From Maribacter antarcticus DSM 21422 (GTDB taxonomy: Bacteria > Bacteroidota > Bacteroidia > Flavobacteriales > Flavobacteriaceae): a stretch of DNA of 64,000 nt. The notes under the pieces are model-generated. The model did no database searches. It was given only the letters and a program-made list of their open reading frames with translations, and was not told the DNA's origin. The DNA lies in contig NZ_JHZC01000009.1 in assembly GCF_000621125.1 (NCBI RefSeq), positions 1 through 64,000 of the forward strand, in the 5' to 3' direction. The translations under genes and the position numbers were made by a program. Below are positions 4,210 through 62,332 of this stretch, piece by piece (within the stretch, counting starts at the first letter, position 1; the number at the start of each line of letters is the position of its first letter).

Positions 4210-5298
4210 ATGACTTCATCGTTACTTTTTTTACCAGACATTTCAGGCTTTACTAAATTCGTCCAAAATACAGAGGTAGAGCACAGTCAACACGTAATTT
4301 CCGAATTATTAGAAGTATTGATTGAAGCGAATACGGAACAATTACTTTTAGCCGAAATAGAAGGAGATGCCCTTTTTTTTTATAAAGAAAATGAAATTCC
4401 TTCATTAGAAAAATTATTAGCTCAAGTAGAGCATATGTTTTCAGCTTTTTATAGTCATTTAAAGTTATTAGAGAAAAACAGAATTTGTCCGTGCAACGCA
4501 TGTTCAACAGCTCCAAATTTAGAACTAAAAATTATTGCTCATTGTGGGGAATTACAATTTATAAATGTTCAAAAAAATAGAAAACCATTTGGAAATCAAG
4601 TAATTGAAGTACATCGATTAATGAAAAATTCGGTGAATAGCGACAATTATGTGTTGCTCAGCAAAGAATTAACAAATCATATTCATTTGTCGGATTCTTA
4701 TCAAACAAAATTATATAATTTCAAAAAAGGAAATAACACCTATGATGGTAAACAGCTAGATTATCTATTTTCAGTTATTGCTAAAAAAGAATTGAAATTA
4801 AAACCCTTTCAGCAAGCAAGAAAGATACTTTTTAATAAACCAGCTTCGCTTATTTTTGAAAATCAATTTCCGGTTTCAGCGAAAGAGCTGTTGGAATATA
4901 TTACAAATTATTCTTATAGAAAATATTGGGTTGATGGTGTAGATAGTTTTGACTATAATTTAAACGAAGTCACAAGAATTGGCACTGAGCATGTCTGTGT
5001 AATTAATCAAAAACGCTTAAATTTCATTACCGTTATTAAAGATGTAAAACCTGGACAATTAGTTTATGGAGAATTAACAACAAGTCCCAAGGCTATTGAT
5101 GAATTGTATCAATTTTTCATTATTTCTCCTTTAACTTCAAATTCTTGCAATCTAACAGCAGAAGTTTACATAAAAGCAAAATCCCCTTTAAAAAAAATAT
5201 TGATTTATGTTTTATTAAAAAATATTTTCAAGAAGAATATTGATAAAGGTTTAAAAAAATTATTAGTGTTTATAGGGTCTAGAAATCAAATATCTTAA
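4210..5298 (+). CDS. DUF2652 protein: class III nucleotide-cyclase-like domain plus SRPBCC-like C-terminal half
   Basis: The protein has 362 residues. Residues 1-190 match the DUF2652 pattern and resemble class III adenylyl/guanylyl cyclase domains: the first strand has LPDISGFTKF with Asp10, the next EIEGDALFF with Asp53 in the place of the second metal-binding Asp, and later FGNQVIEVHRLMK resembles the cyclase helix GxxVNxAxRL. A Cys cluster (C93, C95, C98) sits between. Residues about 215-355 look like a START/SRPBCC lipid- or ligand-binding fold. No signal peptide or membrane segment is seen, so it should be cytosolic. Family members are uncharacterised; cyclase activity is inference from the retained Asp pair. 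It stands alone between decayed DNA. Confidence 0.8.
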   Translation: MTSSLLFLPDISGFTKFVQNTEVEHSQHVISELLEVLIEANTEQLLLAEIEGDALFFYKENEIPSLEKLLAQVEHMFSAFYSHLKLLEKNRICPCNACSTAPNLELKIIAHCGELQFINVQKNRKPFGNQVIEVHRLMKNSVNSDNYVLLSKELTNHIHLSDSYQTKLYNFKKGNNTYDGKQLDYLFSVIAKKELKLKPFQQARKILFNKPASLIFENQFPVSAKELLEYITNYSYRKYWVDGVDSFDYNLNEVTRIGTEHVCVINQKRLNFITVIKDVKPGQLVYGELTTSPKAIDELYQFFIISPLTSNSCNLTAEVYIKAKSPLKKILIYVLLKNIFKKNIDKGLKKLLVFIGSRNQIS

Positions 5299-5862
5299 GG
5301 TTAATGCAAAACAATTTCCTGTAATATCCATTGAAAACAAACTTAAGACGAGTATAATTAATTGCTAGACAGTGTTTAATGATTAGCACGGAAATTCTGC
5401 CGTAATTCCTTCACCCAGTACCTTTTTGTTATCCTAGTGCTTACGCAACTAATCATACACAAGCACCTTACTAAAGCTCAAATTAAAGGGCATTTAATTA
5501 CACTCTTTGAACTATTATTTACACAAACACCTACTTCTCACAAAAAAACACTCCATCCATCCTTTATAGTTTAATTAACGAGTACATTTAATCCCACCCC
5601 CTTATTTAAACTTTTTTTTTCTAAACTCTTTACGTGATGCACCTTTTGGAAAGCGTTAAACTTTTCAGGTAGTATGAAGGTATATTTAAACGATTGTATA
5701 AATGTACTTTGCAATTGAGCAATTTGGACTCATTACAAAAACAGTCTTATGCAAAGGGTCTTTTAAAAGAACGTTGTTGTAGAAGAAGAATGTATTTTTT
5801 ATAATATCCTTTAAGTATGTCTAGTGTATTTTTTTAAATGTTGCCTCCTTTTTAAAATCAAA
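5299..5862. other. Intergenic stretch without recognisable genes
   Basis: About 560 bases of AT-rich sequence with stops in all frames. No RNA gene, repeat or promoter could be supported. Confidence 0.5.
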
Positions 5863-7542: not shown

Positions 7543-7953
7543 ACAGTCAAGAACAAAAAAATAAAATCACTCTAATGTGTATAGTTTGTGATTTTTACAA
7601 ACTATACACATATTTTGAAGTTAGTTGGACTATTGTGAAGGATGCACACAGGGTTCTACATAATATCGTGGGTAAATCGCCTTTTCCTTTTTGAGTAACA
7701 TTTTAAACTTTTAGAAAATTCTTATATAATCACTATCTCCTTTTCTTGAGCATATCCATAAATATTAAAGTTCTGTAAAAGGTGAATTATCGGAACTACT
7801 AAAAGAACGACAAATGGAACAGGAATCATTCTTTAAAATAGCCGGGAGGTCGGTCGGTAAATTTTCATAAAAGGAGTTAAATACCCAATGTTTGTCTAGG
7901 GAATACATAGTAGGTGATATTATTCTATAGTTCCGAGTGACTTAAAGTTAAGC

Positions 7954-8381
7954 ATGAAAGAGAACAAATCAAATATTGGGCCTTTAAGCAAAATGATAAT
8001 TTAGGTTTTAGCATTTGGATTTTATCTATAGTTTTAATTTTGCTGGGCCATGATAATTCGTCAAATAGAAGGACTTTTGACAATCTTCTCAGTGCATTGA
8101 ATGCGCTTTTTTCAGGTTTAGTGTTTCCATAATTCATATTTACGATTGTTATGTAAAAACAAATATTTTAGAATTACAGAGAACCGAAATAGCCCAGAAC
8201 AGAACTGAATTAAAAAAATCTACCAAGACGCAGCAGCTTTCGAAAAAGGCTTGGTGGAGTAAGTAGAAAAAATAAGAATCAGCTCAAAACTAATTCGCTG
8301 AGCACTATAATCGATGTCTACCATATTCAAATCGTAAACCCAGTAAATACTAACGAGATTATTTCAAGAACTAAAGAATAG
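7954..8381 (+). pseudogene. Decayed membrane/coiled-coil protein of the defence-island type
   Basis: Joined across frames, the plus strand reads LGFSIWILSIVLILLG (one TM), FDNLLSALNALFSGLVF then FIFTIV (second TM), then LELQRTEIAQNRTELKKSTKTQQLS (coiled coil), RISSKL, TIIDVYHIQI and NEIISRTKE before a TAG at 8379. Two-TM proteins with this FSGLAF motif followed by a QR/ELxxTRxEL coiled coil are common hypothetical proteins of phage-resistance and mobile islands, sometimes called putative phage abortive infection proteins; that link is from memory of the family. Several stops and at least two shifts break the frame. Confidence 0.6.
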
Positions 8382-10887: not shown

Positions 10888-11835
10888 TCAAGCGAAGGTT
10901 TCCTTCCCCCCTTTCTTAAGGTACTTTTTTAGATTGAAGGCGATTGCAGCCATGAGCATGCCCTTATATGCAACGGCCTTGCACAGTACGCCTATTTTTC
11001 TTAGACCGTAGAACAGGGTCAAACTACCGAATACGGGCTCCACCGTACTTTGCCATATTTGTTTCATTTGTTTGCCCCTCTTGCTATGTTGTCAGCCGTA
11101 GGCCCTCAAATATTGTTCGTCATAGACAGTTCTGATTATTTTTTACATTTTGTATTTGGCACACCTTGGGATTTCATGAGGCAGACCTTGTAGTCTTTCG
11201 GTGCTGCCTAGTAGTTTTTCAGTACGCTACCATCACGGTTGGTATATAATCCCTTGAAAGGCAGGGGCCTGTTAATCGGACAACTATATTCGTCCCTTTC
11301 CCTGGTATAGGGAAAACCTTCTCTTTTAGTTTTATATTTCCCAAAAACGGATATCCATCCGGTAACTTTCCTTTGTTCGAGAAAATGGTGGTTGGCGCCA
11401 TTGAAATAACCTGCGTCCGCGAGGAGACCCGTCATAATGAGCTCGTTTTTCCTTAAACGGCTCTGCACCTGCAGGGTGATATTGGTCAGGTACTGGCTCC
11501 CTGCCGTCAGCAAAGTCAGCTTGGATATGAGAGATGACCCCTTCTGCGATATCTACCGCCATGCTGCTATGGTAATTCAGCTTTCTGGCCTTGCCCGGCT
11601 TTACCGATATACAGGCATCCGAATCATGGGGGTTATAGTGCGTCTTGTTACTGAGCAGACAGTTTTTTTTGGGATGCACCGGCTGGGCCTTCCGGACTGT
11701 CCCTTGCGTTTCGTTGGTGTTTCTCTGCGCACTTCAGCTCGTGCGCAGGAGCGGAGATATGTGCGGGAGGTACAGTTTCTGGCGCTTTTTCGATAGTTTC
11801 CCGATTTTTTTCCGACACTTTTTTCAAATAATCTT
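10888..11835 (-). pseudogene. Truncated IS1182-family transposase
   Basis: Reading leftward, the pieces match the C-terminal two thirds of an IS1182-type transposase: LLSNKTHYNPHDSDACISVKPGKARKLNYHSSMAVD (with a Cys), ADFADG, SQYLTNITLQVQ, LLADAGYFNGANHHFLE, YSCPINRPLPFKG, then WQSTVEPVFGSL with the catalytic Glu, and MAAIAFNLKKYLKK before a stop at 10888-10890. Several frameshifts and stops lie between, and the N-terminal third is missing. It abuts the start-truncated DUF6730 remnant, so the insertion probably cut that gene. Confidence 0.85.
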
Positions 11836-11840
11836 GCAAC

Positions 11841-12305
11841 AAGAAACTGGACGAGGTAATGGAACTGCTCACGGACGAACTGGACGGGTTCTACAAGGCA
11901 TTGGAATAATTGCAACGGCTCTCCAAGAACGTGGAGGACATAAGGATACTTTCCGATACCTCCGAAATCAAGAAACTGCTGGAAATATATTTGAAGCGGG
12001 AAAAAGAGAGGACCTTGCAACTTCAGGAATCCGTTGGTTCATTGAAGGAGCGTTTGGCAAAGGCGAGCGTGATATCCAAATGGTGATTGTGGCTGCACTA
12101 TTATATTTGGGCAATCTCTTTGCTTGTCATAGCGTTTCTTGCCGTTAAGGTTTGCCGAACAGACGAGTTTCGTAAAGAATCATTTTCCAAAGGACGGCAA
12201 GAGTCCATAACAAGCCTTAGGGATTATTTTGATGAATATCTGTCTCATTATAAAGAGTCTGAACAATGGCTCAAAAAAAGGGATACTGTTTCAAATCAAA
12301 AGTAG
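11841..12305 (+). pseudogene. DUF6730-like mobilisation-associated protein, start-truncated with two stops
   Basis: One frame runs from about 11841 to 12305 with two nonsense codons: TAA at 11907-11909 (where Lys or Glu is expected) and TGA at 12084-12086 (where Gln is expected, in KWxLWLHYY). Between them it reads KLDEVMELLTDELDGFYK, LSKNVEDIRILSDTSEI, SVGSLKERLAKA, then one TM segment (IWAISLLVIAFLAVKV) and ESFSKGRQESITSLRDYFDEY. From memory, proteins of this form (DUF6730) sit beside relaxase/mobilisation genes on flavobacterial elements. The 5' end is lost at the IS1182 remnant. With no shift and only two point stops it is a recent loss compared with its neighbours. Confidence 0.6.
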
Positions 12306-12547
12306 CGTGTGCCCTATTTCGATTTTACTTTACCTCCATGTTCCATTTTTTTAATTTCATATGACATAAGAAGTCACTGAAATTTGACACTAACTACAGA
12401 CTCCTTCTTTTAAATAGACTCCAAATACTCGTATTTACCAATCTAAAATACTGCATAAAGTAATATTTATAAAACCCTCTTTAGAAAAATTCCGTAGGTA
12501 GATTTAGAGTGCCTATTTTATTGTTTTGGTCTAATTAATCCAATAAT

Positions 12548-13036
12548 TTGAAAAAATTTGAAAGTATAAAGTCTGGTTTCGTTATAATTTTTATTATCGC
12601 GATGTGTTCTGCGTATGTGCTGAGCCCAGTACAAAATGAGGTTTACAACCTTATTCATAAAATATCACACCAATTGGTTTCAGAAAAACAATATATGGAA
12701 GCTGAGGATATTCACGGCGAGTACCATCACCATGACTTTCTAGCTTCCCGCACTATTCAAGAAAAAGACCATCACCATGAAAAAAAGGAAACAGATGCGC
12801 ATACCCATGGGCTACTTTCGTTATTAAGCGCTTATTTCACTAGTGATGAGAACAGGGATAAAAAGCAAAAACTGACCATTGAAGTAAAACCAGATAAACA
12901 TACCCTTCCAGAAAACACAAAAGAAGAAGTATCGTTGCTTATGGTTGTAGCATCCAATGTTTTTTTCCATGCCGATAAAAATTATAAAATCGGTCTGGAG
13001 GTTAAGACGCCACCTCCAAAAGTTGACCTGACATAG
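12548..13036 (+). CDS. His-rich membrane-anchored protein, likely metal-binding
   Basis: The frame starts with TTG (no usable ATG upstream) and encodes 162 residues. Residues 8-27 form one hydrophobic segment (signal anchor or uncleaved signal), then a periplasmic part with His clusters: EYHHHD (about 59-64), KDHHHEKKE and DAHTHG (about 74-89). The rest is charged with no recognised domain, ending in VKTPPPKVDLT. The clusters strongly suggest zinc, copper or nickel binding. It lies 210 bases upstream of a TonB-dependent receptor whose plug also has a His-rich stretch, so the two probably act in uptake or sensing of the same metal. I do not recognise the family. Confidence 0.65.
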   Translation: MKKFESIKSGFVIIFIIAMCSAYVLSPVQNEVYNLIHKISHQLVSEKQYMEAEDIHGEYHHHDFLASRTIQEKDHHHEKKETDAHTHGLLSLLSAYFTSDENRDKKQKLTIEVKPDKHTLPENTKEEVSLLMVVASNVFFHADKNYKIGLEVKTPPPKVDLT

Positions 13037-13201
13037 GTCCATTACAGTACTACATTTGACGCATTTGACAGATACGTTAACTCGGCACATACATACTTTA
13101 TATAAGGCACAGGGCTAATGTATTCTCGCGCTCCAAATCAACATCTTGGGCTGGTCGTGACTAATTAAGCCGTATCTCTTCTGCATACATTCTAAACTAA
13201 C

Positions 13202-13218
13202 GTTTCCACTTGGGAAAC
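13202..13218. promoter_or_regulatory. Inverted repeat upstream of the TonB receptor gene
   Basis: GTTTCC-N5-GGAAAC lies 27 bases before the receptor ATG. It could be an operator or a 5'-UTR hairpin; no regulator can be named. Confidence 0.3.
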
Positions 13219-13245
13219 CATTGATAAATTCAAAAAACTAAACAG

Positions 13246-15474
13246 ATGAAATATATTTATACAGCATTTTTGATGTTCATCACCTATACCAGTATTGCCC
13301 AAAACCTGAGAGGGACCCTAGTGGGCAAGGGAAACCAACCTCTAGAGAATGTTGGCATATTTAGCCAAAACACAGGACAGCATAACCATACCGATGCCAC
13401 AGGATCCTTTGTCCTTACCAATACAGCTGTGAACGACTCCGTTTATTTTTCCCGTATCGGATATAAAAAAGAACTTTTAGTCGTTTCCCAAGACAATTTG
13501 GATACCAAAATTTATATGGTCTTAGAAGAATCCAGCATTTCGCTAGATCAAGTGATTGTGGTAGCGGAAGTAAATGCACTTAGCCGCATCGTTGATGTCG
13601 ATGTAAAGACCAGTCCCGTAAAATCATCACAGGAAATACTACGGAAAGTGCCAGGACTGATTATTGGCCAACATGCCGGTGGCGGTAAGGCAGAACAGAT
13701 TTTCCTACGAGGCTTTGATGTTGACCATGGTACGGATGTGGCTATAAGTGTAGACGGTATGCCTGTGAACATGGTAAGCCACGCACACGGTCAAGGATAT
13801 GCCGATATGCATTTTGTTATCCCCGAAACCATAGAAAACGTAAGTTTTGGCAAAGGTCCCTACTATGCGGATAAAGGGAATTTTAATACCGCCGGCTTTG
13901 TAGACCTTCGTTTGCGAAAAACCTTGAATAAAAGTTTGATCTCCTTCGAGACCGGACAATTTAATACTTCCCGCCTTTTGGGAATGTTCAACCTATTGGA
14001 ATCGGATAATAGCAACGCCTATATCGCTTCCGAACTTTATCTGACCGATGGACCGTTCGATTCTCCACAGAATTTTAACCGTATCAATGTTATGGGGAGA
14101 TACAATTACAATGTACCGGGCAACCAAGAACTGAACCTTACCGCATCTCATTTTCAAAGTACTTGGGATGCTTCCGGACAGATTCCCCAACGTGCCGTAG
14201 ATCAAAGCCTCATTGGAAGGTTCGGGTCAATTGACGATACAGAGGGCGGCCAAACGAACAGAACTAATTTTCTGGCAAACCATACCAAGGTACTTGATGA
14301 AAATAGGCTTTTTAAGACTAAGGCGTACCTGTCACAGTACAATTTTGAGCTTTATTCCAATTTTACTTTTTTTCTAAAAGACCCTGTTAACGCTGATCAA
14401 ATAAGGCAAAAGGAAAATCGTATCATCGTTGGCGCGGAGAGTGTATTTGAACAGAAGAACATGATTTTGGGTGACGATACCCAGTTCGAGTATCAATCTG
14501 GAATCGGGTTTAGATACGATAATGCAGACGACATTGAACTATCGAACACTTTGAACCGTCAAACGACCTTAAACCGGATTTCTTTGGGCGATGTTGATGA
14601 AACAAACACCTATGCTTTCTTAAACACCGAGCTAAAAACAGGCAAATGGACTATCAATCCTTCTATACGATTGGATTATTTCAACTTCGATTATGTAAAC
14701 AAGATTACGGAAACCTATGATAATCAAAGCGAATCCAAAGTTGCCTTTAGCCCAAAACTCAACACCATCTATTCGGTAAACAGAAATTGGCAGCTTTTTC
14801 TTAAGTCCGGCATTGGTTTCCATTCCAATGACACCCGAGTGGTAGTCGCCAACAATGGGGAAGATATCCTTCCGGCAGCCTATGGTATAGATTTCGGCAC
14901 CATCATAAAACCAATAAATAAATTGGCCTTGAACGCTACGCTTTGGGGACTGTTCCTAGAACAGGAATTCGTTTATGTTGGCGATGCCGGCATCGTAGAA
15001 CCCAGTGGAAAGACCAGAAGATTGGGAGCGGAATTTGGCGCACGGTATCAGGCCTTGGATTGGTTATACCTTTACGGGGACATCAATTATACCTATGGAC
15101 GAAGTACTGAAGAACCCGACGGGGCGGATTTTATCCCCCTTGCTCCCGATATTACATCTTCAGGAGGTATCTTGATAGATGGCCTTGGTAACTTTTCAGG
15201 GGCATTAACCTATCGATATATAGATGACAGGCCGGCAAACGAGGATAATTCGATTACCGCGGACGGATATTTTATTACCGATTTCAACCTAAACTACCAT
15301 TATAAAAACTGGACATACGGTATTATTGTGGAAAACCTCTTTGACAACGCGTGGAACGAAACACAGTTTGCTACGGAAAGCCGTCTGTTCAATGAAACCT
15401 CTTCCGTTGAGGAGATTCATTTTACACCTGGTACCCCGCTCTATATCAGGGGGAAAATATCGATATCCTTTTAA
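13246..15474 (+). CDS. TonB-dependent outer-membrane receptor with carboxypeptidase-like N-domain
   Basis: The protein has 742 residues with a signal peptide (MKYIYTAFLMFITYTSIAQ). Residues about 22-100 form a CarboxypepD_reg-like beta domain, 115-225 the plug (ILRKVPGLIIGQHAGGGKAEQIFLRGFDVDHGTDVAISVDGMPVN...), and the rest a 22-strand barrel ending in a Phe (SISF). The plug carries VSHAHGQGYADMHFV, two His-rich steps in a loop next to the substrate side. SusD is absent downstream, so this is not a SusCD glycan pair. With the His-rich protein upstream, a divalent metal or metallophore substrate is plausible, as in ZnuD-like receptors, but this is inference. No terminator hairpin was seen directly after it; an IS1595 remnant follows. 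Confidence 0.85.
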   Translation: MKYIYTAFLMFITYTSIAQNLRGTLVGKGNQPLENVGIFSQNTGQHNHTDATGSFVLTNTAVNDSVYFSRIGYKKELLVVSQDNLDTKIYMVLEESSISLDQVIVVAEVNALSRIVDVDVKTSPVKSSQEILRKVPGLIIGQHAGGGKAEQIFLRGFDVDHGTDVAISVDGMPVNMVSHAHGQGYADMHFVIPETIENVSFGKGPYYADKGNFNTAGFVDLRLRKTLNKSLISFETGQFNTSRLLGMFNLLESDNSNAYIASELYLTDGPFDSPQNFNRINVMGRYNYNVPGNQELNLTASHFQSTWDASGQIPQRAVDQSLIGRFGSIDDTEGGQTNRTNFLANHTKVLDENRLFKTKAYLSQYNFELYSNFTFFLKDPVNADQIRQKENRIIVGAESVFEQKNMILGDDTQFEYQSGIGFRYDNADDIELSNTLNRQTTLNRISLGDVDETNTYAFLNTELKTGKWTINPSIRLDYFNFDYVNKITETYDNQSESKVAFSPKLNTIYSVNRNWQLFLKSGIGFHSNDTRVVVANNGEDILPAAYGIDFGTIIKPINKLALNATLWGLFLEQEFVYVGDAGIVEPSGKTRRLGAEFGARYQALDWLYLYGDINYTYGRSTEEPDGADFIPLAPDITSSGGILIDGLGNFSGALTYRYIDDRPANEDNSITADGYFITDFNLNYHYKNWTYGIIVENLFDNAWNETQFATESRLFNETSSVEEIHFTPGTPLYIRGKISISF

Positions 15475-15739: not shown

Positions 15740-16740
15740 TTGTATATTGAGTTTATAGAAACAAAAAAGCTTACCGAACAAATACTCTCACTGCCAGTTG
15801 CGCAGCGCGAGCGTTTATTGAAGGGAATCGAAGATTCGACCAAAAAAATTGACCTGTCTGCGATTGTCTCATGCCGGCACGAGTTCGATAACAAAGGCTG
15901 TGCCTGTCCGCACTGTGCTCACCCTAAGTATGTTCGCTTTGGTAGGGACAAAGGTGCGCAGCGCTACAAGTGCAAGTCTTGCCACAGGAGATTTACTGAG
16001 TACACTGGCACTTGGGTGGCCGGCCTTCAAAGGAAGGATAAAATTGCAGATTACCTAAAGCTAATGGTCAAAGAAAAGAGCCTTGACAAAATTGTCTCGG
16101 CATTGGGCATCAACAAAAAGACAGCCTTTGACTGGCGTCACAAGATATTGGCCTCACTGGGCGCGGACGACGGGGATGACTTCACCGGTATCACTGAAAG
16201 TGATGAGACTTTCTTCCTCAGGTCTGAAAAGGGTATGGAGGTCAAAAACTGAAAACCAAGGAAAAGGAGTGGCAAGTCCAGCAAAAGGGGCATAAGCAAT
16301 AATCAGGTTGCTGTCATCGTAACCTAGGACATAAATTCTGGGATAGATTTGAGCATGGCCACGCTTGGACGGATTGGGAAGACCGATATTGCAAATGCCA
16401 TTGGCAAACGCATAAAAAAGGGAGGCACAATTTTGTGCAATGATTCCCACTCCAGCTATAAAGGCTTCGCCGAGGACACCGAAGTGGCGTTCCATCCCAT
16501 AAATGTTTCCAAGGGTAAAAGCCGCATTCCATGTGCAACATGTAAACTCGACACACAATAGGATAAAAAAGTGGATTGGCAGTACGTTTTTGGGCGTGTC
16601 CACCAAATACCTGCAACAGTATCTAAACTGGCATACCCTAAAAAAAATCAAATAGGGACACCACTGCTGCCTTCGCACAACAGACATTGGGTGTGGGGGC
16701 TTTGAAGCGGTTTGCGAACATCCAGCCATACTATGAAACT
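15740..16740 (+). pseudogene. Wrecked IS1595-family transposase
   Basis: The N-terminal 170 residues are still open (15740-16252): a zinc ribbon (CPHCAHPKYVRFGRDKGAQRYKCKSCHRRF), a helix-turn-helix (KIVSALGINKKTAFDWRHKIL) and the start of the DDE/N core (ESDETFF with the first catalytic Asp). The frame then shifts near 16250; the continuation gives QVAVIVT, MATLGRIGKTD, GTILCNDSHSSYKGFA (second Asp) and the HPINVSKG segment near 16500, ending in stops. ISXO2-like transposases of about 300 residues have this order. The protein is not functional. Terminal repeats were not resolved. Confidence 0.85.
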
Positions 16741-55206: not shown

Positions 55207-57504
55207 TTACTGTACTTTAAACCGAAACCCCAAGTAGAACATTCTACCCATAATAGGCGCATACACAATACTCGTATCAAAATTCTCACCAAACGGGTCG
55301 TCCAAGCCTAAAATAGGGTTTGGTTGTCTAAAATTAGATAAATTTTCCCCACCGAGGTACACCTCAAATTTAGTTGAAAAAACCTTGGTCACTTGGGCGT
55401 TCATCACACTATAACCATCTGCAAAGTCTCCCAATCTAAACTGTGACGGATTCACATCGGTATTTGGCAAACGCTGTTCCCCTTGGGTATGCACCGTATA
55501 GTCGAACTTCCAAAGAGACCCATTCTCCTTGGGCTTTGTTTCATACCCTAAATTTACAAAAAACCGGTTTTGGGCTTGTAAGGGTTTTTGTAGCCTACCA
55601 CTTCTATAATCAGTGGCTACGTCATAGTATTTATAGGCCATTCGCACCTCTACGTTTTCTAGGATTTCATGGTTTACCTCCACCTGAAAACTATTGGCAT
55701 AGCTTTCCCCATCCAGATTATAAAAGGATATGGCCCTAGGGTTTTCCCAATCTACCACAATCTGATTTCTAAAATCGGTTCGGTAATAGTCCAACGAAAC
55801 GTTTCCTTTTCGGTTGAGGAATACAAAACCCTGTAGAAAACTTATGCCATAATTCCATGCATCTTCAGCATCGAGACCATAGATACTTCCGCCCTCATCC
55901 ATTAATTGAATCTGTCGAGAAGACCCGAATAACTGTTGGTTCTCAGCAAAAATATTCGCGGCGCGCCTACCCCTACCAAAAGAACCTCTTAAGCTCCCCA
56001 ACTCCCAAGGGGTATAGCGTACGTGCAATCTTGGTGTCACAAATGTACCCAAACGGTTGTGGGTATCTACGCGAAGACCTGCGGTTAGGCTCACTTTCTC
56101 CAAGTTTTCGTAGGCATACTCAAAAAATGCGCCACCAGAAACATCCTCCCTGCCGAAGTCCGTAGTGTACACGAGTTCATCGTAGCTGTCATAGGCAAAG
56201 GTCAATCCGGTGGTAAACTTATTCCTTGTATCTCCGATGATGGAGTTGAACAGCAGATTGGAATACACGCTGTTATGGTTTATATCATATCGATTAAAAC
56301 CGAAGTAGGATTCCTGCTGATGATTGCTATAGGAAGCCTGAAACCCTATACTTTGAAATGGCAACTCCGGAAATACATAACCCAATTTTACCGAGGTATC
56401 AAAACGTCGCGTGTCTATTTCACTTCCCCAGCCTTCGGCTGCGCTAAGAGCGAGACCCTCGGGAGTATCAGCATTGGGAGCTGAGCGCAACCGAACCCAG
56501 TTATCGGCATTAAAATCGACTTCCCCTACTTGTTTTTCATCATTTAAATAGCGGAGATTAATAAAGCTTACCCATCCCGTTTCCGGATTCTGGTATTGCC
56601 AACGGTTCATAATATTTATTTGATTGGCCAGAGGCGCATCCAAAAAGCCATCATCGTTACCGTCCTCTTTCTGTCTTCTTTGATTTCCATGGATATATAG
56701 CCCTGTACTCCACTTATCCGTAAGTTTATGGTTCAAATGAGTATTCAGCTCCAAACGCCCGTTTTGATTGGCATACCCGTTTACGAACAAGCGTTTATCT
56801 GTCATGGGCTTTACGAGTTCTGTATTGATTTGTCCAGAAATACTCTCATAACCGTTCACTACGCTTCCTGCACCTTTAGTAATCTGTATACTCTCTACCC
56901 ATGTACCTGGAGTAAATGTGAGTCCGTATGCCTGTGAAGCCCCACGCACCATAGGAATATTCTCTTGGGTAATGAGTAGGTAAGGACTTGTAAGTCCCAG
57001 CATTTGAATTTGCTTAGTACCTGTTAGTGCATCGGAAAAATTTACATCGATAGCAGGATTGGTCTCAAAACTCTCGGAAAGATTACAACAGGCCGCTTTT
57101 AGTAATTCAGCACTATTAATCGTCACCACATTTTGAGCACTAAAAAAAGTTTTTTCTACTGCATCGCGTTGCTGTTGCACCACCACTTCATCTAAGGCAT
57201 TGGAAGGTTTTAGAACATGCCTTATTTTTCTGGGTTCCCTAATATCAAGTGTGTCCGACTCAAACCCTACATAGCTAATAATCAGCGTATTGTATTTCCC
57301 AAAAAACGGAATGCTAAAATTTCCCTTTACATCGGTAACCGTTCCAATTTGGGAATTCATCCAATACACATTGGCTCCTGGCAAGGCTATGGTCTTGTTA
57401 CCGTTAGGTTCCATCACTACCCCATCCACAGTAGACTGAGAAAAGCTAAGAAAAGGCAATACCATAATCACAAAACAACTAAAAAAAAAATTCCCCTTCA
57501 ACAT
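55207..57504 (-). CDS. TonB-dependent receptor of the copper operon
   Basis: The 765-residue protein has a signal peptide (FFFSCFVIMVLPFLSFSQ), a CarboxypepD_reg-like N-domain (about 25-105), the plug (about 115-230; NVVTINSAELLKAACCNLSESF, with a CC pair that may bind metal; then VVNGYESISGQINTEL) and the barrel ending in FKVQ. No SusD is present. Position within the metal operon suggests copper or a chelated-metal substrate. It is 30 bases after the cusB gene. Confidence 0.88.
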   Translation of the reverse strand: MLKGNFFFSCFVIMVLPFLSFSQSTVDGVVMEPNGNKTIALPGANVYWMNSQIGTVTDVKGNFSIPFFGKYNTLIISYVGFESDTLDIREPRKIRHVLKPSNALDEVVVQQQRDAVEKTFFSAQNVVTINSAELLKAACCNLSESFETNPAIDVNFSDALTGTKQIQMLGLTSPYLLITQENIPMVRGASQAYGLTFTPGTWVESIQITKGAGSVVNGYESISGQINTELVKPMTDKRLFVNGYANQNGRLELNTHLNHKLTDKWSTGLYIHGNQRRQKEDGNDDGFLDAPLANQINIMNRWQYQNPETGWVSFINLRYLNDEKQVGEVDFNADNWVRLRSAPNADTPEGLALSAAEGWGSEIDTRRFDTSVKLGYVFPELPFQSIGFQASYSNHQQESYFGFNRYDINHNSVYSNLLFNSIIGDTRNKFTTGLTFAYDSYDELVYTTDFGREDVSGGAFFEYAYENLEKVSLTAGLRVDTHNRLGTFVTPRLHVRYTPWELGSLRGSFGRGRRAANIFAENQQLFGSSRQIQLMDEGGSIYGLDAEDAWNYGISFLQGFVFLNRKGNVSLDYYRTDFRNQIVVDWENPRAISFYNLDGESYANSFQVEVNHEILENVEVRMAYKYYDVATDYRSGRLQKPLQAQNRFFVNLGYETKPKENGSLWKFDYTVHTQGEQRLPNTDVNPSQFRLGDFADGYSVMNAQVTKVFSTKFEVYLGGENLSNFRQPNPILGLDDPFGENFDTSIVYAPIMGRMFYLGFRFKVQ

Positions 57505-57533
57505 CTACTAAGTTTTATAAACTATAATAATAT

Positions 57534-59300
57534 CTATTTACCAATTGTATCTATTACAGAACCGCAAGTTAACATCTCGTCTCCATAATATGGATTTTTT
57601 ATTTCTCTACTTTCACTAAGCCACAAAGCGCCTTTGTTCTGGTTCGCCATTGGACATTTCTGAACATAAAATGGCGGATTCATAGTACTCATATTCATAG
57701 CGACTGGAATAATACTTTCATTCAAAACTACAAAATTAACACGTTGATTTTCTAAATCAGCGTCTTCAAGAATAGCATTAAGTGCTTCATCAATACCACC
57801 AAAATGTTCTTTTTGAGTTTCTGTCAAACTAGAAATTTTAATTTTTTCCAAGTCCTTTAATAAAACACCTGTAGCAATTTTTACCTTTTCAATATCAGAT
57901 TGAACAAAAGCATCCTTCAATTGTGAATAAGAGTTTAATACTAGAAGGAAATTTTTTTGAACAGACTTTGGCAATTCCGTAGTTCCTCCATCCAATTTTT
58001 CTTCCCTATTCATCTGCATACTTGTATACTCCTCATGTCCAGTCATTGTTTTACCACCAGATTTGTTCATCATGGACTTCTTACCCTGTAACTGTGCTGC
58101 CGCGTCCACGGTGAAGGTGCCATTAGTTACAATTTCATCTCCATTTTCTAAGCCATGAGTTATAGTGAAATTTTCTCCATTTCGGTTTCCAATAGTTACT
58201 TCTCGCATTTCAAAAATGGGTTCATTTAGATTGGTTTTTATATATACCAAAGAGCGTTCTCCCGTCCATAGTACAGCAGTTGCAGGAACAGAAATTAATT
58301 CACTATTCTTTTCCGTTAATCCTTGAAGTTTTCCGTTTACAAACATCCCTGGCTTAAACAAATCTTCCGTATTTTTAAGTGTTGCTCTTACGGTAACAGT
58401 TCGCGTTGCTTTATTCAATATGGGGTCAATAAACGAAACTGTTGCTTCAAACTCTTTATTGGGATATGCGTTGGTTACTATCTTTATTTTTTGACCTATT
58501 TTAAATTGAGAGATTTGATTTTCATAGGCATCAAAATCAGCCCAGACCGAACTTAGATTACTTACCTTGAATATTGACATCCCATCCATCACATGGGCCC
58601 CCTCATTGAGCATTATCTCTGTTATAACTCCAGAAACGTGAGAATAAATTGGGAAGCGCTGTATCACTTGGCCGCTGCTCTCAATCTTGTCAAGAACATC
58701 ACCGTGTATCCTCCAATTTTTAAATTTATTGCGTACCGCATCGTATAATTGGGGCTGTAACTCTTTCAACTTAAAGGTGGTTATCAGTTCTTGTTGAGCG
58801 GCCACCAAGGCTGGTGAATAGATAGAGGCTACTTTTTGTCCTCGGTTTACTTTTTCGCCTAATGAATTTACATACAATTGCTCGATGCGACCGTCAAAAT
58901 GTGCAGGCTGTGTTGCAGTTTCGTCCTTGTTTTCTGTAATTTTTCCCGAAAGCGAAATCATACCTTCATTATCTGCTATTTCATTACCAACGATAGTTGT
59001 TTGCACATTGGCCAATGCCATGGCGTTCTTGGTCATTTTTATCTCGTTCACGGCCAATCCTTCCGCACCTGACTCCGCTGGAATTAATTCCATGCCACAA
59101 ATTGGGCAATCGCCTGGTTCTGCTTGTATTATTTGAGGATGCATTGAACACGTCCATAATTGATTCTTAGCCTCTTCAAAATGGTGATGACTGTCCGATA
59201 GTTCTTGATTGGACGTGTTAGCGTTATTTCCAAATAATAGATAGCCGCCAACTAGTCCTATAACTACTGCAATACCGATATATAAAATATTTTTTTTCAT
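57534..59300 (-). CDS. CusB-like RND periplasmic adaptor with metal-binding N- and C-domains
   Basis: I use the ATG at 59300 (MKKNILYIGIAVVIGLVGGYLLF); two further ATGs precede it in frame. Residues 1-25 form a TM anchor; about 45-80 carry a heavy-metal-binding domain (WTCSMHPQIIQAEPGDCPICGMEL); about 90-400 are the HlyD-like lipoyl/barrel part (FDGRIEQLYVNSLGEKVNRGQKVASIYSP); about 460-580 form a DUF3347-like end domain (FLLVLNSYSQLKDAFVQSD) and a final Cys-Pro-Met (QKCPMANQNKGALW). It links the CusA-like pump to TolC. It starts 3-12 bases after the ATPase stop. Confidence 0.9.
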   Translation of the reverse strand: MKKNILYIGIAVVIGLVGGYLLFGNNANTSNQELSDSHHHFEEAKNQLWTCSMHPQIIQAEPGDCPICGMELIPAESGAEGLAVNEIKMTKNAMALANVQTTIVGNEIADNEGMISLSGKITENKDETATQPAHFDGRIEQLYVNSLGEKVNRGQKVASIYSPALVAAQQELITTFKLKELQPQLYDAVRNKFKNWRIHGDVLDKIESSGQVIQRFPIYSHVSGVITEIMLNEGAHVMDGMSIFKVSNLSSVWADFDAYENQISQFKIGQKIKIVTNAYPNKEFEATVSFIDPILNKATRTVTVRATLKNTEDLFKPGMFVNGKLQGLTEKNSELISVPATAVLWTGERSLVYIKTNLNEPIFEMREVTIGNRNGENFTITHGLENGDEIVTNGTFTVDAAAQLQGKKSMMNKSGGKTMTGHEEYTSMQMNREEKLDGGTTELPKSVQKNFLLVLNSYSQLKDAFVQSDIEKVKIATGVLLKDLEKIKISSLTETQKEHFGGIDEALNAILEDADLENQRVNFVVLNESIIPVAMNMSTMNPPFYVQKCPMANQNKGALWLSESREIKNPYYGDEMLTCGSVIDTIGK

Positions 59301-59312
59301 TATCATCATGTA

Positions 59313-62045
59313 TTAGTTAATTGATTTTGTTTTTAATCCCAGGGCATTCACTATAACAGATACCGAACTAAAACTCATTGCAAGTGCCGCAATCATAGGC
59401 GATAATAGTATCCCAAAAAACGGAAATAAAACACCTGCCGCAATAGGGACTCCTAGTGTGTTATATACCAATGCAAAAAATAGATTTTGCTTGATGTTTT
59501 TCATTACAGCGTGGCTTAGATTCTTTGCTTTCACAATACCGTGTAAATCTCCTTTTACAAGGGTAATCATAGCACTCTCAATAGCAACATCGGTTCCTGT
59601 TCCCATTGCGATACCGACATCGCTTTTAGCTAATGCAGGTGCATCGTTAATACCATCGCCAGCCATTGCGACCACTTTTCCTTGTTCCTGTAATTTTGTT
59701 ACTTCTTTGAGTTTGTCTTCTGGTAACATTCCCGCTTTAAAGTCAGCTAGGTTGAGTTCACTCGCTACAGCTTGGGCAGTATCGTGATTATCTCCAGTAA
59801 GCATTATGACAGCGATGCCTTTATCTTGGAATTCTCTAATGGCTTTAGCACTTGTCTTTTTAATTTTATCCCCAATAACCACATAGCCTGACACTTCGGT
59901 ATCTACAGCCAAATAAGAAACCGTTTTGCCCTGTTTCTGAAATGATTGTGCCTCGGCTTCCATTTCTTCAGAAATAGTGGCTTTTGCATATTCCATCATT
60001 TTGGCATTTCCTAAATCTAGTTTTTTACCATCAACTGTTCCCTCTACACCCTTTCCAGTAACCGCACTAAAGTTTTCGGTTTTTGATAGTTCGATTTTTT
60101 GTTCTTTCCCGTATTTCACGGTTGCTGCGGCCAGCGGATGTTCGCTAGAACTGTTTAGGGATGCAACGAAATATAGTATTTCAGTTTCAGAAAAGTTTGA
60201 ACCAAATACACCTATTTTCTCAACTGTTGGTTTTCCTTCAGTAATAGTTCCCGTCTTATCCACTATCAAGGTAGTTACCTTGTCCATTTTTTCCAGCGCT
60301 TCGGCATTTTTAATCAATACACCATTCTGAGCTCCTTTACCAACACCTACCATGACCGACATGGGTGTCGCTAAGCCTAAAGCACAAGGGCAAGCAATAA
60401 TCAATACAGCGATGGCATTTACTAGTGCAAATACATAAGTCGGTTCTGGGCCCCAAATGGCCCAAACTATAAAGGTGATTAAAGAAATGGCCACCACCAC
60501 AGGTACAAAATGTCCTGAAACGGTATCTGCCAGTTTTTGAATAGGTGCCCGACTGCGACTTGCATCATTTACCATCTTTATGATTTGAGAAAGTAGCGTA
60601 TCACTACCAACTTTTACGGCTTTCATCAAGAAAGATTGATTGCCGTTTATGGTGCCGCTACTTACTTTGTCATCTTCAATTTTGTCAACAGGGATAGGTT
60701 CTCCAGAAATCATTGATTCATCTACTGTCGTTTTTCCTTCTGTAATTATACCGTCCACAGGGATTTTATCGCCTGGCTTTACTCTTAGAATATCTTCTTT
60801 TTCAATTTTATCGATAGAAACCTCTTCTTCATTCCCATCAACCACGCGTACTGCTTTATTAGGTGCAAGCTTTAATAATTCCTTAACTGCGGAATTGGTT
60901 TTACTGTGCGCTCTTGCCTCTAAAACTTGACCCATTAAGACAAGGGTAAGTATTACGGTTGCTGACTCAAAATAAACGTGAACTGCTCCTGATGCTGTCT
61001 TAAATTGTTCAGGGAAAAAGTCTGGAAATATCATTCCAAAAACACTAAACAGCCACGCAACACCTGCACCGATTCCGATGAGGGTAAACATATTGAGATT
61101 CCACGTTTTTATACTTTTATAGGCACGCTCAAAGAACATCCAAGTGGCATAAAACACAACAGGAATTGATAGTGCAAACTGAATCCAATTCCACCACTTT
61201 TGCTCCATCACATCATATAATGCATTATTAGGAACCATCTCGCTCATCGCAATCAAGAAAATGGGAAGTGCGAAACCAACCGCTATCCAAAATTTCTTCA
61301 ATAATTTTTTATAGGTCTTCTCTTCAGCAGAAAGGTCTGGTTGCAAAGGCACTAAATCCATTCTGCAAATAGGGCAAGCTCCTGATTCGTCTTTCACGAT
61401 TTCGGGATGCATTGGGCAGGTCCATTGTTCAGAAGTTACTACCGATAAATTTTGTTCTTCTACCAAATCCATTCCACATACGGGACAGTCCTCAGGTTTG
61501 TCATAAGTCTTATCTCCTTCGCAATGCATTGGACAATAAAACGTTCCAGTTCCTTTTCCTTTGGGGTTTCCCTTTTTGGTTTCTATCGTTTTATGATATT
61601 CTCCACGTTCATCAATATTGTATGTGCCACCATCCTCTTTCATCGCTTTCTGAAACGTTTCAATAGAAATGTGAGATTCCATCTCGATAGTTGCTTCTGC
61701 TTTTTCTAAATCTACCGACGCATTGGTTACACCTTCCACTTTTGAAAGTGTTTGCTCCACGTGATGGCGACAACCATTGCAGGTCATTCCGTGTATGCTA
61801 TAGGTGTGTTTCATTATTCCGATTTCCTTTTCTTTTTGCATATGGATACTGTAACGTGTACCATCCTTTACAAGTGCATCTTGAAAGGTCTGGATAGAAA
61901 TATGCGATTCCATTTCGATAGTAGCTTTTTCCTTTTTTAAATCGACTGCTACTTTTGAAACACCTTCCACTTTAGAAAGTGTTTGCTCAACGTGACTGCG
62001 ACAACCATTGCAGGTCATTCCGTGTATGTGATAGGTGTGTTTCAT
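59313..62045 (-). CDS. Copper-exporting P1B-type ATPase with two HMA domains
   Basis: The 910-residue protein has two HMA domains with GMTCNGC (Cys12/15 and Cys89/92), two heavy-metal-binding segments (FYCPMHCEG...CPVCGMDL about 169-194 and WTCPMHPEI...CPICRMDL about 208-231), then eight TMs (about 250-570 and 850-900). The actuator loop has SGEP (447-450), TM6 has CPC (552-554), the P-domain DKTGT (596-600) and later GDGINDAPAL. This is the Cu(I) exporter type (CopA). The second metal-binding segment has Arg for the usual Gly (CPICRMDL). The two HMA domains are close duplicates (see repeat entry). It lies 16 bases after the metal-binding lipoprotein. Confidence 0.93.
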   Translation of the reverse strand: MKHTYHIHGMTCNGCRSHVEQTLSKVEGVSKVAVDLKKEKATIEMESHISIQTFQDALVKDGTRYSIHMQKEKEIGIMKHTYSIHGMTCNGCRHHVEQTLSKVEGVTNASVDLEKAEATIEMESHISIETFQKAMKEDGGTYNIDERGEYHKTIETKKGNPKGKGTGTFYCPMHCEGDKTYDKPEDCPVCGMDLVEEQNLSVVTSEQWTCPMHPEIVKDESGACPICRMDLVPLQPDLSAEEKTYKKLLKKFWIAVGFALPIFLIAMSEMVPNNALYDVMEQKWWNWIQFALSIPVVFYATWMFFERAYKSIKTWNLNMFTLIGIGAGVAWLFSVFGMIFPDFFPEQFKTASGAVHVYFESATVILTLVLMGQVLEARAHSKTNSAVKELLKLAPNKAVRVVDGNEEEVSIDKIEKEDILRVKPGDKIPVDGIITEGKTTVDESMISGEPIPVDKIEDDKVSSGTINGNQSFLMKAVKVGSDTLLSQIIKMVNDASRSRAPIQKLADTVSGHFVPVVVAISLITFIVWAIWGPEPTYVFALVNAIAVLIIACPCALGLATPMSVMVGVGKGAQNGVLIKNAEALEKMDKVTTLIVDKTGTITEGKPTVEKIGVFGSNFSETEILYFVASLNSSSEHPLAAATVKYGKEQKIELSKTENFSAVTGKGVEGTVDGKKLDLGNAKMMEYAKATISEEMEAEAQSFQKQGKTVSYLAVDTEVSGYVVIGDKIKKTSAKAIREFQDKGIAVIMLTGDNHDTAQAVASELNLADFKAGMLPEDKLKEVTKLQEQGKVVAMAGDGINDAPALAKSDVGIAMGTGTDVAIESAMITLVKGDLHGIVKAKNLSHAVMKNIKQNLFFALVYNTLGVPIAAGVLFPFFGILLSPMIAALAMSFSSVSVIVNALGLKTKSIN

Positions 62046-62046
62046 T
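61730..62046 (-). repeat. Direct repeat encoding the tandem HMA domains
   Basis: The DNA at 61730-61815 and 61961-62046 is nearly identical over about 86 bases (including the coding sequence for GMTCNGCR.HVEQTLSKVEGV), and weaker similarity continues through the rest of each domain. This shows a recent internal duplication of about 231 bases. Confidence 0.85.
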
Positions 62047-62061
62047 TGATGTTTTTAAAGT

Positions 62062-62322
62062 CTATTCGTGTTTGTGTCCATTTGCTTTATGGTCTTCATT
62101 TTTTACGAGTGCCATTCCACAAGTGTCGCATTTTCCTTCTTTATCACTGCCACTATCTTTACAATGCATTGGACATACATAAGTAGATGTGTATTCGGTT
62201 CCTTGTTCTTCAGTTATTTCCGTTGGTTGCGTTTTTATTTCTGCTTTGTTGTCTTTACACGACACCATTGTTACTAATGCTAGTACTACCATTCCTGTGA
62301 AAATTAATTTGAGACTTTTCAT
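62062..62322 (-). CDS. Heavy-metal-binding-domain lipoprotein
   Basis: The 86-residue protein has a lipoprotein signal (KLIFTGMVVLALVTMVSCKDNK) and one heavy-metal-binding segment (TYVCPMHCKDSGSDKEGKCDTCGMAL), then a His/Lys-rich end (KNEDHKANGHKHE). The segment resembles those in the ATPase and the adaptor. It probably holds copper or a similar metal in the periplasm. It lies 10 bases after the tolC gene. Confidence 0.88.
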   Translation of the reverse strand: MKSLKLIFTGMVVLALVTMVSCKDNKAEIKTQPTEITEEQGTEYTSTYVCPMHCKDSGSDKEGKCDTCGMALVKNEDHKANGHKHE

Positions 62323-62332
62323 TGTTATGTGT

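Follow-up and report, generated by a model that had tools for sequence, protein, structure and literature searches.

FrpB4 and FecA3 of Helicobacter and CntO are described as TonB-dependent receptors that take up nickel, alone or complexed (PMC11247825), and nickel or cobalt uptake across the outer membrane has experimental support in few bacteria. Other receptors have been assigned to these metals by prediction. Cluster 987, which holds Bll6948, Daro_3944 and pHCG3_081 together with RPA_4757 and Daro_1684, is labelled nickel/cobalt in a report that cites Rodionov et al. (2006) as the source of the predictions and describes such receptors as uncommon in marine data (PMC3400609). According to one review, no cobalt-specific outer-membrane receptor has been confirmed (PMC7689651). 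The ZnuD-type zinc receptor is a further TonB-dependent receptor for a metal (PMC2895646).

The locus described here lies in a 64,000-nucleotide stretch of the Maribacter antarcticus DSM 21422 genome (the window). As the initial annotation had reported, an open reading frame for a 162-residue protein with clustered histidines (12548-13036, + strand, TTG start) is followed by one for a TonB-dependent receptor of 742 residues (13246-15474, + strand). We consider it reasonably probable that the two serve a route of nickel (or nickel/cobalt) uptake as its arm in the outer membrane and periplasm. The locus provides a Bacteroidota model open to testing, with a partner family defined by LHxxSH, HxH, DKH and PP and with a promoter motif.

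The receptor is proposed to take up nickel in a TonB-dependent manner, as FrpB4/FecA3 and CntO do, but no close sequence relation to these proteins was seen; against solved structures it gave weak partial matches, including one to a chain labelled CntO (E 1.1e-4). It shares core plug residues with the predicted proteobacterial nickel/cobalt receptors, and sequence relatives about 32% identical to it lie amid nickel genes on plasmids from Afipia carboxidovorans, Bradyrhizobium and Cupriavidus necator. It differs in having H189 where these have N, in its ECF-type promoter motif and in its small partner rich in histidine. Like ZnuD it would be a TonB-dependent metal receptor; unlike ZnuD it has no His-rich barrel loop by eye, and a crude scan gave no convincing Zur operator. 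In contrast to a SusC/SusD pair, the neighbour of the receptor is the 162-residue His-rich protein. No SusD-like gene and no gene for a siderophore turned up close by (Pfam for the pair and five neighbours, the other reading frames by eye), in agreement with the initial annotation. CnrX of Cupriavidus is a membrane-anchored periplasmic nickel/cobalt sensor with histidine ligands in an ECF-controlled setting. The small protein probably resembles it in its anchoring, periplasmic location and histidine ligands and in an ECF-type nickel/cobalt setting, but a profile search of PDB chains detected no sequence relation. Permeases of the HupE/UreJ nickel/cobalt family are encoded near the pair in relatives with a nonribosomal peptide synthetase (NRPS) gene, but were not seen beside the window pair.

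The receptor and the metal context of its relatives

The receptor has a plug and barrel architecture according to Pfam, AlphaFold2 and Foldseek. Its N-terminal CarboxypepD_reg-like domain (residues 22-105, 13309-13560, + strand; CarbopepD_reg_2, PF13715, E 1.4e-11) is accompanied by a Plug domain (PF07715, E 9.2e-14). The AlphaFold2 model reached a pTM of 0.81, and its best Foldseek match was FecA (E 2.5e-29), a generic match, with identities of 11-16% among the 50 best matches listed. Since residues 143-149 and 178-184 have pLDDT values below 50, the model shows no readable metal site.

Alignment of 81 receptors revealed a plug signature running from H143 to E194 (13672-13827, + strand; HAGGGKAEQIFLRGFDVDHGTD...PVNMVSHAHGQGYADMHFVIPE). 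H143, D160, H161, D164, H181, D187 and E194 are invariant, as is H526 in the barrel (14821-14823, + strand; 81/81). H179 is kept in 76/81 and H189 in 73/81, with N at the latter position in six proteobacterial rows and in a distant receptor (L209). The His-containing plug stretch pointed out previously (residues 177-190) was confirmed as VSHAHGQGYADMHF.

The receptor matches 49 plasmid records, and 25 were opened to represent the 40 listed. The first eight were picked partly because some were expected to carry hydrogenase genes, and 17 more were opened to lessen this bias; eight of the 25 lack gene annotation there, leaving 17 annotated. Nickel or cobalt genes lie beside or near the receptor in 12 of the 17: HoxN/NixA-type permeases in six, nikR in five, NiFe-hydrogenase or hyp genes in four, cobW/cobN or other cob genes in three, and HupE in one. 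The remaining five show no nickel/cobalt gene near the receptor. Among 40 Bacteroidota stretches, the receptor follows urease genes in three (L192, L194, L211), and in three others (L217-L219) it is preceded by a cobalamin riboswitch and placed within or next to B12 genes; in 28 of the 40, whose neighbours were read without one-by-one annotation, no nickel/cobalt gene was recognised.

The initial annotation had called the receptor one of unknown type. Its relatives, by sequence, are instead predicted nickel/cobalt receptors, the proteobacterial ones being about 27-33% identical to it. Because a nickel/cobalt locus context occurs only in relatives, the window receptor is assigned to this family by homology, namely to receptors in nikR/hoxN/hydrogenase, urease and cob loci with which it shares the signature residues. 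We found no experimental study of a close relative in the literature. It is likely, as judged from sequence, that the window receptor takes up nickel or cobalt, either free or chelated.

Beside the window pair, no nickel/cobalt enzyme or permease was recognised, and no cobalamin riboswitch was found at threshold. The window genome gave no match to urease alpha, LarA or NiFe hydrogenase, and hence no obligate nickel user was identified in it; why such a genome keeps this receptor is a physiological puzzle. It does encode one short HupE/UreJ homologue on a different contig (G000:C9:101467-101937). In a sample of 149 genomes from the same family as the window organism, 59 of which carry receptor homologues, receptor presence does not track NiFe hydrogenase (8/59 receptor genomes versus 11/90 others, P 0.81).

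The small histidine-rich protein

The strength of the evidence on the small protein is residue conservation, not composition. Its 13 histidines in 162 residues, some clustered as EYHHHD, KDHHHE and AHTHG, compare with 1.5% in nine window reading frames (binomial P ~1.4e-6, for a protein picked for being His-rich). In an alignment of 71 members, H37, H87, P156 and P157 are invariant and H60 is conserved in 68. The conserved core consists of LHxxSH with H37-x-x-S-H41 (12656-12670; H37 71/71, H41 68/71), HxH at H85-x-H87 (12800-12808; 67/71 and 71/71), DKH at D116-K117-H118 (12893-12901; 64/71, 69/71 and 70/71) and the C-terminal PP, P156-P157 (13013-13018; 71/71), all on the + strand.

A hydrophobic stretch at about residues 10-27 (12575-12628, + strand), found by reading, is a candidate membrane anchor and lies within a helix that AlphaFold2 places at residues 4-51, with block means of 85-93 across residues 11-40. 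The N-terminus is thus probably anchored in the membrane, with the His-rich part in the periplasm. The model otherwise has one short helix and is mostly of low confidence (mean pLDDT 69), a quality insufficient for fold comparison.

The protein fits no family in Pfam, NCBIfam or the PDB profiles, where its best match had an E-value of 0.97; the earlier inability to name its family was therefore borne out. When the 71 members were searched at E 0.1, each family matched at most two (NCBIfam) or four (Pfam) of them among the 25 families listed per library, and these scattered matches look unrelated. None of the matches listed pointed to a described small metal-binding family, HYC_CC_PP and DUF6660 being counted among these, and we found no literature on the two. 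By sequence, the small protein appears to represent an undescribed family in the libraries searched (Pfam, NCBIfam and PDB).

The neighbourhood conservation that the initial annotation had proposed as a check was clear. All 28 strong small-protein matches in the 149 genomes adjoin a receptor homologue, at 75-294 bp and hence within 300 bp (Fisher P 3.6e-14, or 8.8e-12 with two weak matches in receptor-less genomes included, kinship ignored in both). In another collection, the small gene is present in 70 of the 80 closest receptor loci. The pairing is not obligatory: the small protein was undetected in 31 of the 59 receptor genomes, including one of the same genus (G075), and in one locus (L096) a MerC-family protein takes its place before the receptor.

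The adjacency and co-occurrence of the two genes, their conserved residues and the promoter motif are observed; on what is carried, which way the metal moves and whether the two proteins touch, we infer the following route. The receptor would bind Ni(II) or Co(II), free or chelated, through the His/Asp signature of plug and barrel, and import it into the periplasm with TonB energy, as its family suggests. The small protein, which its N-terminal helix would fix in the inner membrane, probably handles the metal once it is inside the outer membrane; it would bind the ion through H37/H41, H85/H87 and H118 and either buffer it or deliver it to a permease of the inner membrane whose gene lies elsewhere. 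The PP, also conserved, may serve as a docking tail.

The same pair could instead take up zinc or copper, the Flavobacteriaceae receptor having changed substrate and the His-rich protein shuttling one of these metals. Periplasmic proteins rich in histidine are typical of zinc uptake, and the small protein would share this property. In L192, a small protein between a urea transporter and the receptor (profile E 5.6e-16 with a 25.8-bit composition correction, pairwise BLASTP E only 0.003) weakly matches ZrgA, a zinc uptake protein in NCBIfam (E 7.6e-4; 19 bits, with the cut-off at 185). The MerC-family protein of L096, the genes for a zinc ABC transporter, for MerC with a transcriptional repressor and for a copper-binding protein near some receptor relatives, the failure to find an obligate nickel enzyme (urease, LarA or NiFe hydrogenase) in the window genome and the crudeness of the Zur operator scan all leave room for such a substrate. 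However, the contexts of the receptor family are mainly nickel/cobalt (the 12/17 plasmid relatives and the urease and B12 loci), and the core signature residues are those of the nickel/cobalt-linked members, apart from H189, which is N in proteobacteria. We therefore regard zinc or copper as an unlikely substrate.

A promoter motif upstream of the pair

An ECF-sigma-type promoter, AAACC-N16-CGTA (ggTA), lies about 48 bp before the start of the small protein (12472-12500, + strand) and is the only window match of the motif assigned to an open reading frame start. The motif was spotted by eye in the output of a palindrome scan and then counted on overlapping sequences with related species unweighted; on this basis AAACC-N10-22-CGTW occurs in 21 of 34 upstream regions of loci without the NRPS gene, compared with 0-2 of 34 in ten shuffles searched with the same pattern. 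The spacer is exactly 16 in 19 of the 21. In NRPS-bearing loci, 9 of 37 upstream regions carry the pattern. Sigma-70-type promoters were no commoner than in shuffles.

Two further settings provide a more independent check. Loci without the small gene (L215, L076, L106, L114, L115) still have the motif in front of the receptor, and in relatives the motif also stands before DUF4331 genes near sigma-factor genes; we found no literature on DUF4331. In the window genome as a whole, a stricter pattern was not enriched (six matches versus 14 for the reversed control), and the genes after the other five matches formed no clear regulon. The motif itself is conserved; transcription of the pair from 12472-12500 would involve an ECF sigma factor.

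This motif, and its recurrence before DUF4331 genes near sigma-factor genes, would also suit a different role for the small protein, that of an anchored periplasmic metal sensor resembling CnrX, which would sense nickel or cobalt through its spaced histidines and control the promoter via an anti-sigma/ECF system. Against this, neither CnrX nor any other chain was recovered in the PDB profile search (best E 0.97), the small gene sits with the receptor rather than with a sigma gene, and the motif persists before the receptor in the loci that lack the small gene. We consider a sensor role very improbable and retain metal handling in the periplasm as the preferred function.

Occurrences of the motif within the sigma-factor genes of L239, L240, L242 and L246 had suggested autoregulation, a reading that was dropped. 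These matches lie 281-329 nt into the reading frame and encode [K/Q]NL...FVD, a near-constant position which indicates that they are probably coding sequence.

A Zur box had been suggested upstream of the pair. Our home-made, crude scan for palindromic operators (25 upstream regions, 14 settings, three shuffles each) revealed no convincing Zur operator, and the conserved ECF-type promoter was found instead. In 11 of the 14 settings, the top score was slightly above that of the best shuffle (for example, 9.75 versus 9.29), always with A/T-rich seeds, which we read as clustering of A/T runs rather than an operator.

An NRPS cluster in sister genomes

The initial annotation had pictured the pair as a simple metal-capture module. 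Metal uptake is still the best reading and simplicity holds in the window, but an NRPS gene stands on the same strand directly before the small gene in 36 of 80 related loci. The corresponding NRPS reading frame cluster spans 39 loci, among them L083 with an inverted copy, L114 with fragments and L118, which lacks the small gene. Among the sampled genomes, 15 have an NRPS match at E 1e-100, which lies beside the receptor in 13. In all of these 13, a 411-448-residue HupE/UreJ-type frame is found 1-7 kb from the NRPS match. In the sister genomes this is a candidate metallophore cluster.

The receptor may be specific for a metallophore, that is, for a chelate made by the NRPS operon of sister genomes, with operon-less strains using the chelates of their neighbours. 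In addition to the 36 loci and 13 genomes above, one receptor clade (SH-aLRT 99) has the cluster in 13 of its 16 rows, and the distant receptor L209 (30%) likewise lies within an NRPS-type cluster. On the other hand, no product is known for the cluster, no such cluster appeared in the regions flanking relatives linked to urease or hydrogenase, the clade of the window receptor is without it, and a search of the window genome at E 1e-100 gave no NRPS match. We regard metallophore specificity as a serious possibility that falls short of an even chance. Because it is a form of the nickel/cobalt uptake route rather than its opposite, our confidence in the two overlaps.

More tentatively, and at a confidence lower than that for metallophore specificity, the pair could be part of a regulon through which Flavobacteriaceae acquire nickel or cobalt under ECF sigma control, and the small proteins could be a new family of His-rich metallochaperones anchored in the inner membrane. 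Its fullest form would add a dedicated NRPS nickelophore or cobaltophore and a HupE permease, and strains of the window type would keep the uptake pair and use the chelates of others.

The biosynthetic set for this metallophore would comprise a cyclodeaminase, a prolyl-ACP-dehydrogenase-like enzyme, an adenylating ligase and a carrier protein, as well as an adenylation domain that is interrupted by an amidotransferase/ATP-pyrophosphatase domain.

A small His-rich protein encoded directly upstream of the receptor

The small His-rich protein gene (12548-13036, +; 162 residues) precedes the TonB-dependent receptor gene (13246-15474, +; 742 residues), both read as ORFs on contig C7, the contig of the window, in a genome of 4.85 Mb that is 99.99% complete. 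TTG was taken as the start of the small protein: a stop codon stands four codons before it, and translation from the next in-frame ATG would begin within the helix. Degenerate transposase/mobilisation-like ORFs, read by eye, lie before the pair (10900-12300) and an IS1595-type transposase (15740-16252; E 1.9e-14) lies after it; the genes adjoining the pair gave no clue to its function.

Among 149 same-family genomes, the receptor matched 59 at E 1e-60 or better. The small protein of the window as sole query found matches in 15 genomes, and a 71-row profile (A1) found them in 30. Of these, 28 were strong, at E 5.6e-13 or lower, and all 28 are at a distance of 75-294 bp from the match of the receptor; the remaining two were weak and fragmentary, from genomes in which the receptor had no match. 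From a second collection of 450 confirmed receptor relatives the best 80 were kept, and the small gene is upstream of the receptor in 70 of these 80; the profile was built from the same 70 loci plus the window, so that they match by construction, and matches elsewhere are less biased, though some belong to the same species. The neighbourhood conservation that the initial annotation named as a check was borne out in relatives. The profile found no small protein in the other ten loci (L076, L095, L096, L106, L113-L116, L118 and L127); the L127 contig starts just before the receptor. At L096, a MerC-family protein (5228-5626) takes the position of the small protein.

Members of the small-protein family are 17-35% identical to the window protein and share a constant layout: a hydrophobic helix, Y23, P27, H37xxSH41, a variable His-rich linker, H85xH87, D116-K117-H118 and P156-P157. 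No Pfam or NCBIfam model and no solved structure fits the family, which agrees with the earlier statement that it could not be named. The AlphaFold2 model has helices at 4-51 and 88-97 and is mostly of low confidence elsewhere. The helix and a positively charged N-terminus suggest that the protein is anchored in the inner membrane with the remainder in the periplasm. Our best guess for its role is periplasmic metal handling; a role as a sensor is a less favoured prediction that keeps some weight.

Small anchored-looking proteins also occur beside more distant receptors. Outside the clade of the window receptor, L189 encodes a 136-residue protein (7941-8351, -) that the family profile did not pick up. 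It resembles the family in layout, with SPVTIELYHLTSH, a His-rich composition and PPP close to the C-terminus. Those at L198 (4667-5053) and L201 (4321-4878) carry His/Cys residues and a PP end; they precede the receptor by 362 bp in L198 and by 143 bp in L201. These three may represent a broader group of receptor partners.

Nickel and cobalt genes around receptor relatives

In a quick tree of 81 receptors (SH-aLRT supports only, long branches flagged), the window receptor falls in a 32-row clade (SH-aLRT 98). The small gene is present in 29 of these rows, the exceptions being L010, L025 (near a contig end) and L027. All 81 rows, chosen for their resemblance to the receptor of the window, share H143, D160, H161, D164, H181, D187, E194, D384, H526, E574 and D580 without exception.

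Plasmid records matching the receptor at E 1e-20 numbered 49. Twenty-five were examined to represent 40 of these matches, the others among the 40 looking like near-duplicates by organism and score; eight of the 25 lacked a gene table in the stretch, leaving 17 annotated. Nickel/cobalt genes are near the receptor in 12 of the 17. Cupriavidus necator pHG1 carries hydrogenase genes and hoxN, the latter ~4.4 kb upstream of the receptor; two Bradyrhizobium records have an adjoining HoxN-type permease followed by hydrogenase genes; and Afipia has adjoining hyp genes and nikR. NikR also adjoins the receptor in Methylomagnum (with a zinc ABC gene further downstream), Polymorphobacter (with MerC and a repressor past a second receptor) and a Comamonadaceae strain, and Paraburkholderia has nikR with a HoxN-type permease. 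HoxN-type permease, cobW and cobN directly follow the receptor in Sphingopyxis and Novosphingobium ES2-1, and in Novosphingobium ES2-1 a copper-binding protein is encoded some kilobases before it; cob genes start ~3.4 kb downstream in Methylorubrum CM4, and one gene separates HupE from the receptor in Hymenobacter. No such genes were seen in five annotated records, from Methylobacterium XJLW, Indioceanicola, Sphingobium and Adhaeribacter (two records, carrying DUF4331 and TPR genes). The annotation splits one Adhaeribacter plasmid receptor (L174, 8956-11219) into two overlapping TonB-dependent receptor pieces.

Receptor matches at E 1e-40 occur in 39 of 247 Bacteroidota genomes, and 40 stretches around receptors from this and the 149-genome sample were inspected, three of which (L224-L226) were picked for their NRPS genes. 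The receptor follows urease genes in L192 (UreF, UreG and UreD by Pfam, with a urea transporter), L194 (UreE) and L211 (the same ORF clusters). Between the L192 urea transporter and receptor lies a small protein with readable MHNVVH, HQH, LDKH and PPP motifs, matched by the profile at E 5.6e-16 with a composition correction of 25.8 bits, and by pairwise BLASTP at E 0.003 only. The urease-linked receptor with a small protein (L159) falls outside the 32-row clade. Cobalamin riboswitches (99-126 bits) precede the receptor in L217-L219; Pfam recognised CobQ, CobD, CbiX and CobN around it in L218, several of whose ORF clusters recur in L219; L217 shares those that directly follow the receptor. HupE-type genes are present in six of the 40 stretches (L197, L199, L209 and L224-L226) and a DUF4331-cluster gene in 11 (Pfam-checked in L210); in 28, no nickel/cobalt gene was recognised.

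Published predictions concern the same metals. PMC3400609, in the portion available, labels a cluster with Bll6948, Daro_3944, RPA_4757, pHCG3_081 and Daro_1684 nickel/cobalt, and describes such receptors as uncommon in its studied bacteria and in surface-ocean data. In the available text of PMC7142613, Daro_3944 and BLL6948 are given as predicted for nickel and Daro_1684 as predicted for cobalt, with Rodionov et al. 2006 as the source; that of PMC7689651 describes a NiCoT gene and cobW together with a Novosphingobium receptor that follows a B12 riboswitch. The literature text accessible to us contained no report of a nickel/cobalt receptor in Flavobacteriaceae or of one with a His-rich partner. 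The window receptor is likely a member of a predicted nickel/cobalt-associated family. Searches of the window genome found no urease, LarA or NiFe hydrogenase that would point to the metal moved there.

NRPS operons beside related pairs

An NRPS gene directly precedes the small gene in 36 of the 80 best loci (L053-L132). Eight of the 36 encode 1035-1049 residues, and the one scanned reads C-A-T; the other 28 encode at least 1369, and the two of these that were scanned carry an inserted WbuX/QueC-like domain. Operons adjoining the receptor were found in L224 (2-13296), L225, L226 and L209. The fullest form comprises a cyclodeaminase, a prolyl-ACP-dehydrogenase-like protein, a ligase, a carrier protein and C-A-[WbuX/QueC-like]-T. 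At L224, the ornithine/lysine-cyclodeaminase-like gene has lysine cyclodeaminase as best PDB match (E 1.7e-85) and the acyl-CoA-dehydrogenase-like gene best matches prolyl-ACP dehydrogenase (E 4.9e-117); prolyl-carrier-protein ligase is among the matches of the adenylating ligase (E 4.8e-67), with gramicidin synthetase domains scoring higher. The cyclodeaminase was not seen in L225 or L226, nor the dehydrogenase in L225. A divergently transcribed HupE-type gene (416 residues) is present in L224, and each of the 13 sampled genomes that have an NRPS beside the receptor holds a HupE-type frame of 411-448 residues at 1-7 kb from the NRPS match.

The NRPS operon and long HupE near the receptor form a candidate metallophore cluster of Flavobacteriaceae, of metallophore-like logic. 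The small protein might act with a metallophore complex, a reading that we favour less than periplasmic metal handling. The NRPS search of the window genome gave no match at E 1e-100.

An upstream motif shared with DUF4331 loci

AAACC-N10-22-CGTW, present at 12472-12500 in the window, was found before the small gene in 21 of the 34 loci that lack the NRPS gene, against 0-2 of 34 in ten shuffles; 19 of these 21 matches have a 16-bp spacer. Loci with the NRPS gene have the motif in 9 of 37 cases. In loci lacking the small gene, the motif stands closely before the receptor (L215, L195 and L076) or 256-305 bp before it (L106, L114 and L115). DUF4331-cluster genes are likewise preceded by it in L199, L210 and L214, as is the DUF4331 gene in five of seven further loci (L239-L242 and L246); it is absent there from the window genome (L237) and the same-genus genome G075 (L238). 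The form AAACC-N16/17-CGTA is found before the DUF4331 gene in L210, L214, L239-L242 and L246, all of which, like L237 (G000:C2:111000-125000), hold a DUF4331 pair and a TPR gene.

Sigma-factor genes were seen by eye near the DUF4331 gene in L210, L214, L239, L240, L242 and L246, those of L210 and L214 clustering with an annotated sigma-70 factor in L175. From the motif form and these neighbouring genes, we infer that an ECF sigma factor reads the AAACC/CGTA motif. The receptor occurs in 39 of 56 genomes with DUF4331 and in 20 of the 93 without it (P 7e-9, uncorrected for relatedness).

Two further loci were noted. Genome G013 carries a second, broken receptor copy (C8:204760-206292, -; five stops in the match) ~5 kb from a urease alpha match (C8:211549-211914, -), the only one over the cut-off among the 149 genomes. 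Within the window, a copper-handling-like operon (55207-63553, -) was read by eye as a TonB-dependent receptor (765 residues), a CusB-like protein, an HMA/P-type ATPase and an outer-membrane efflux protein.
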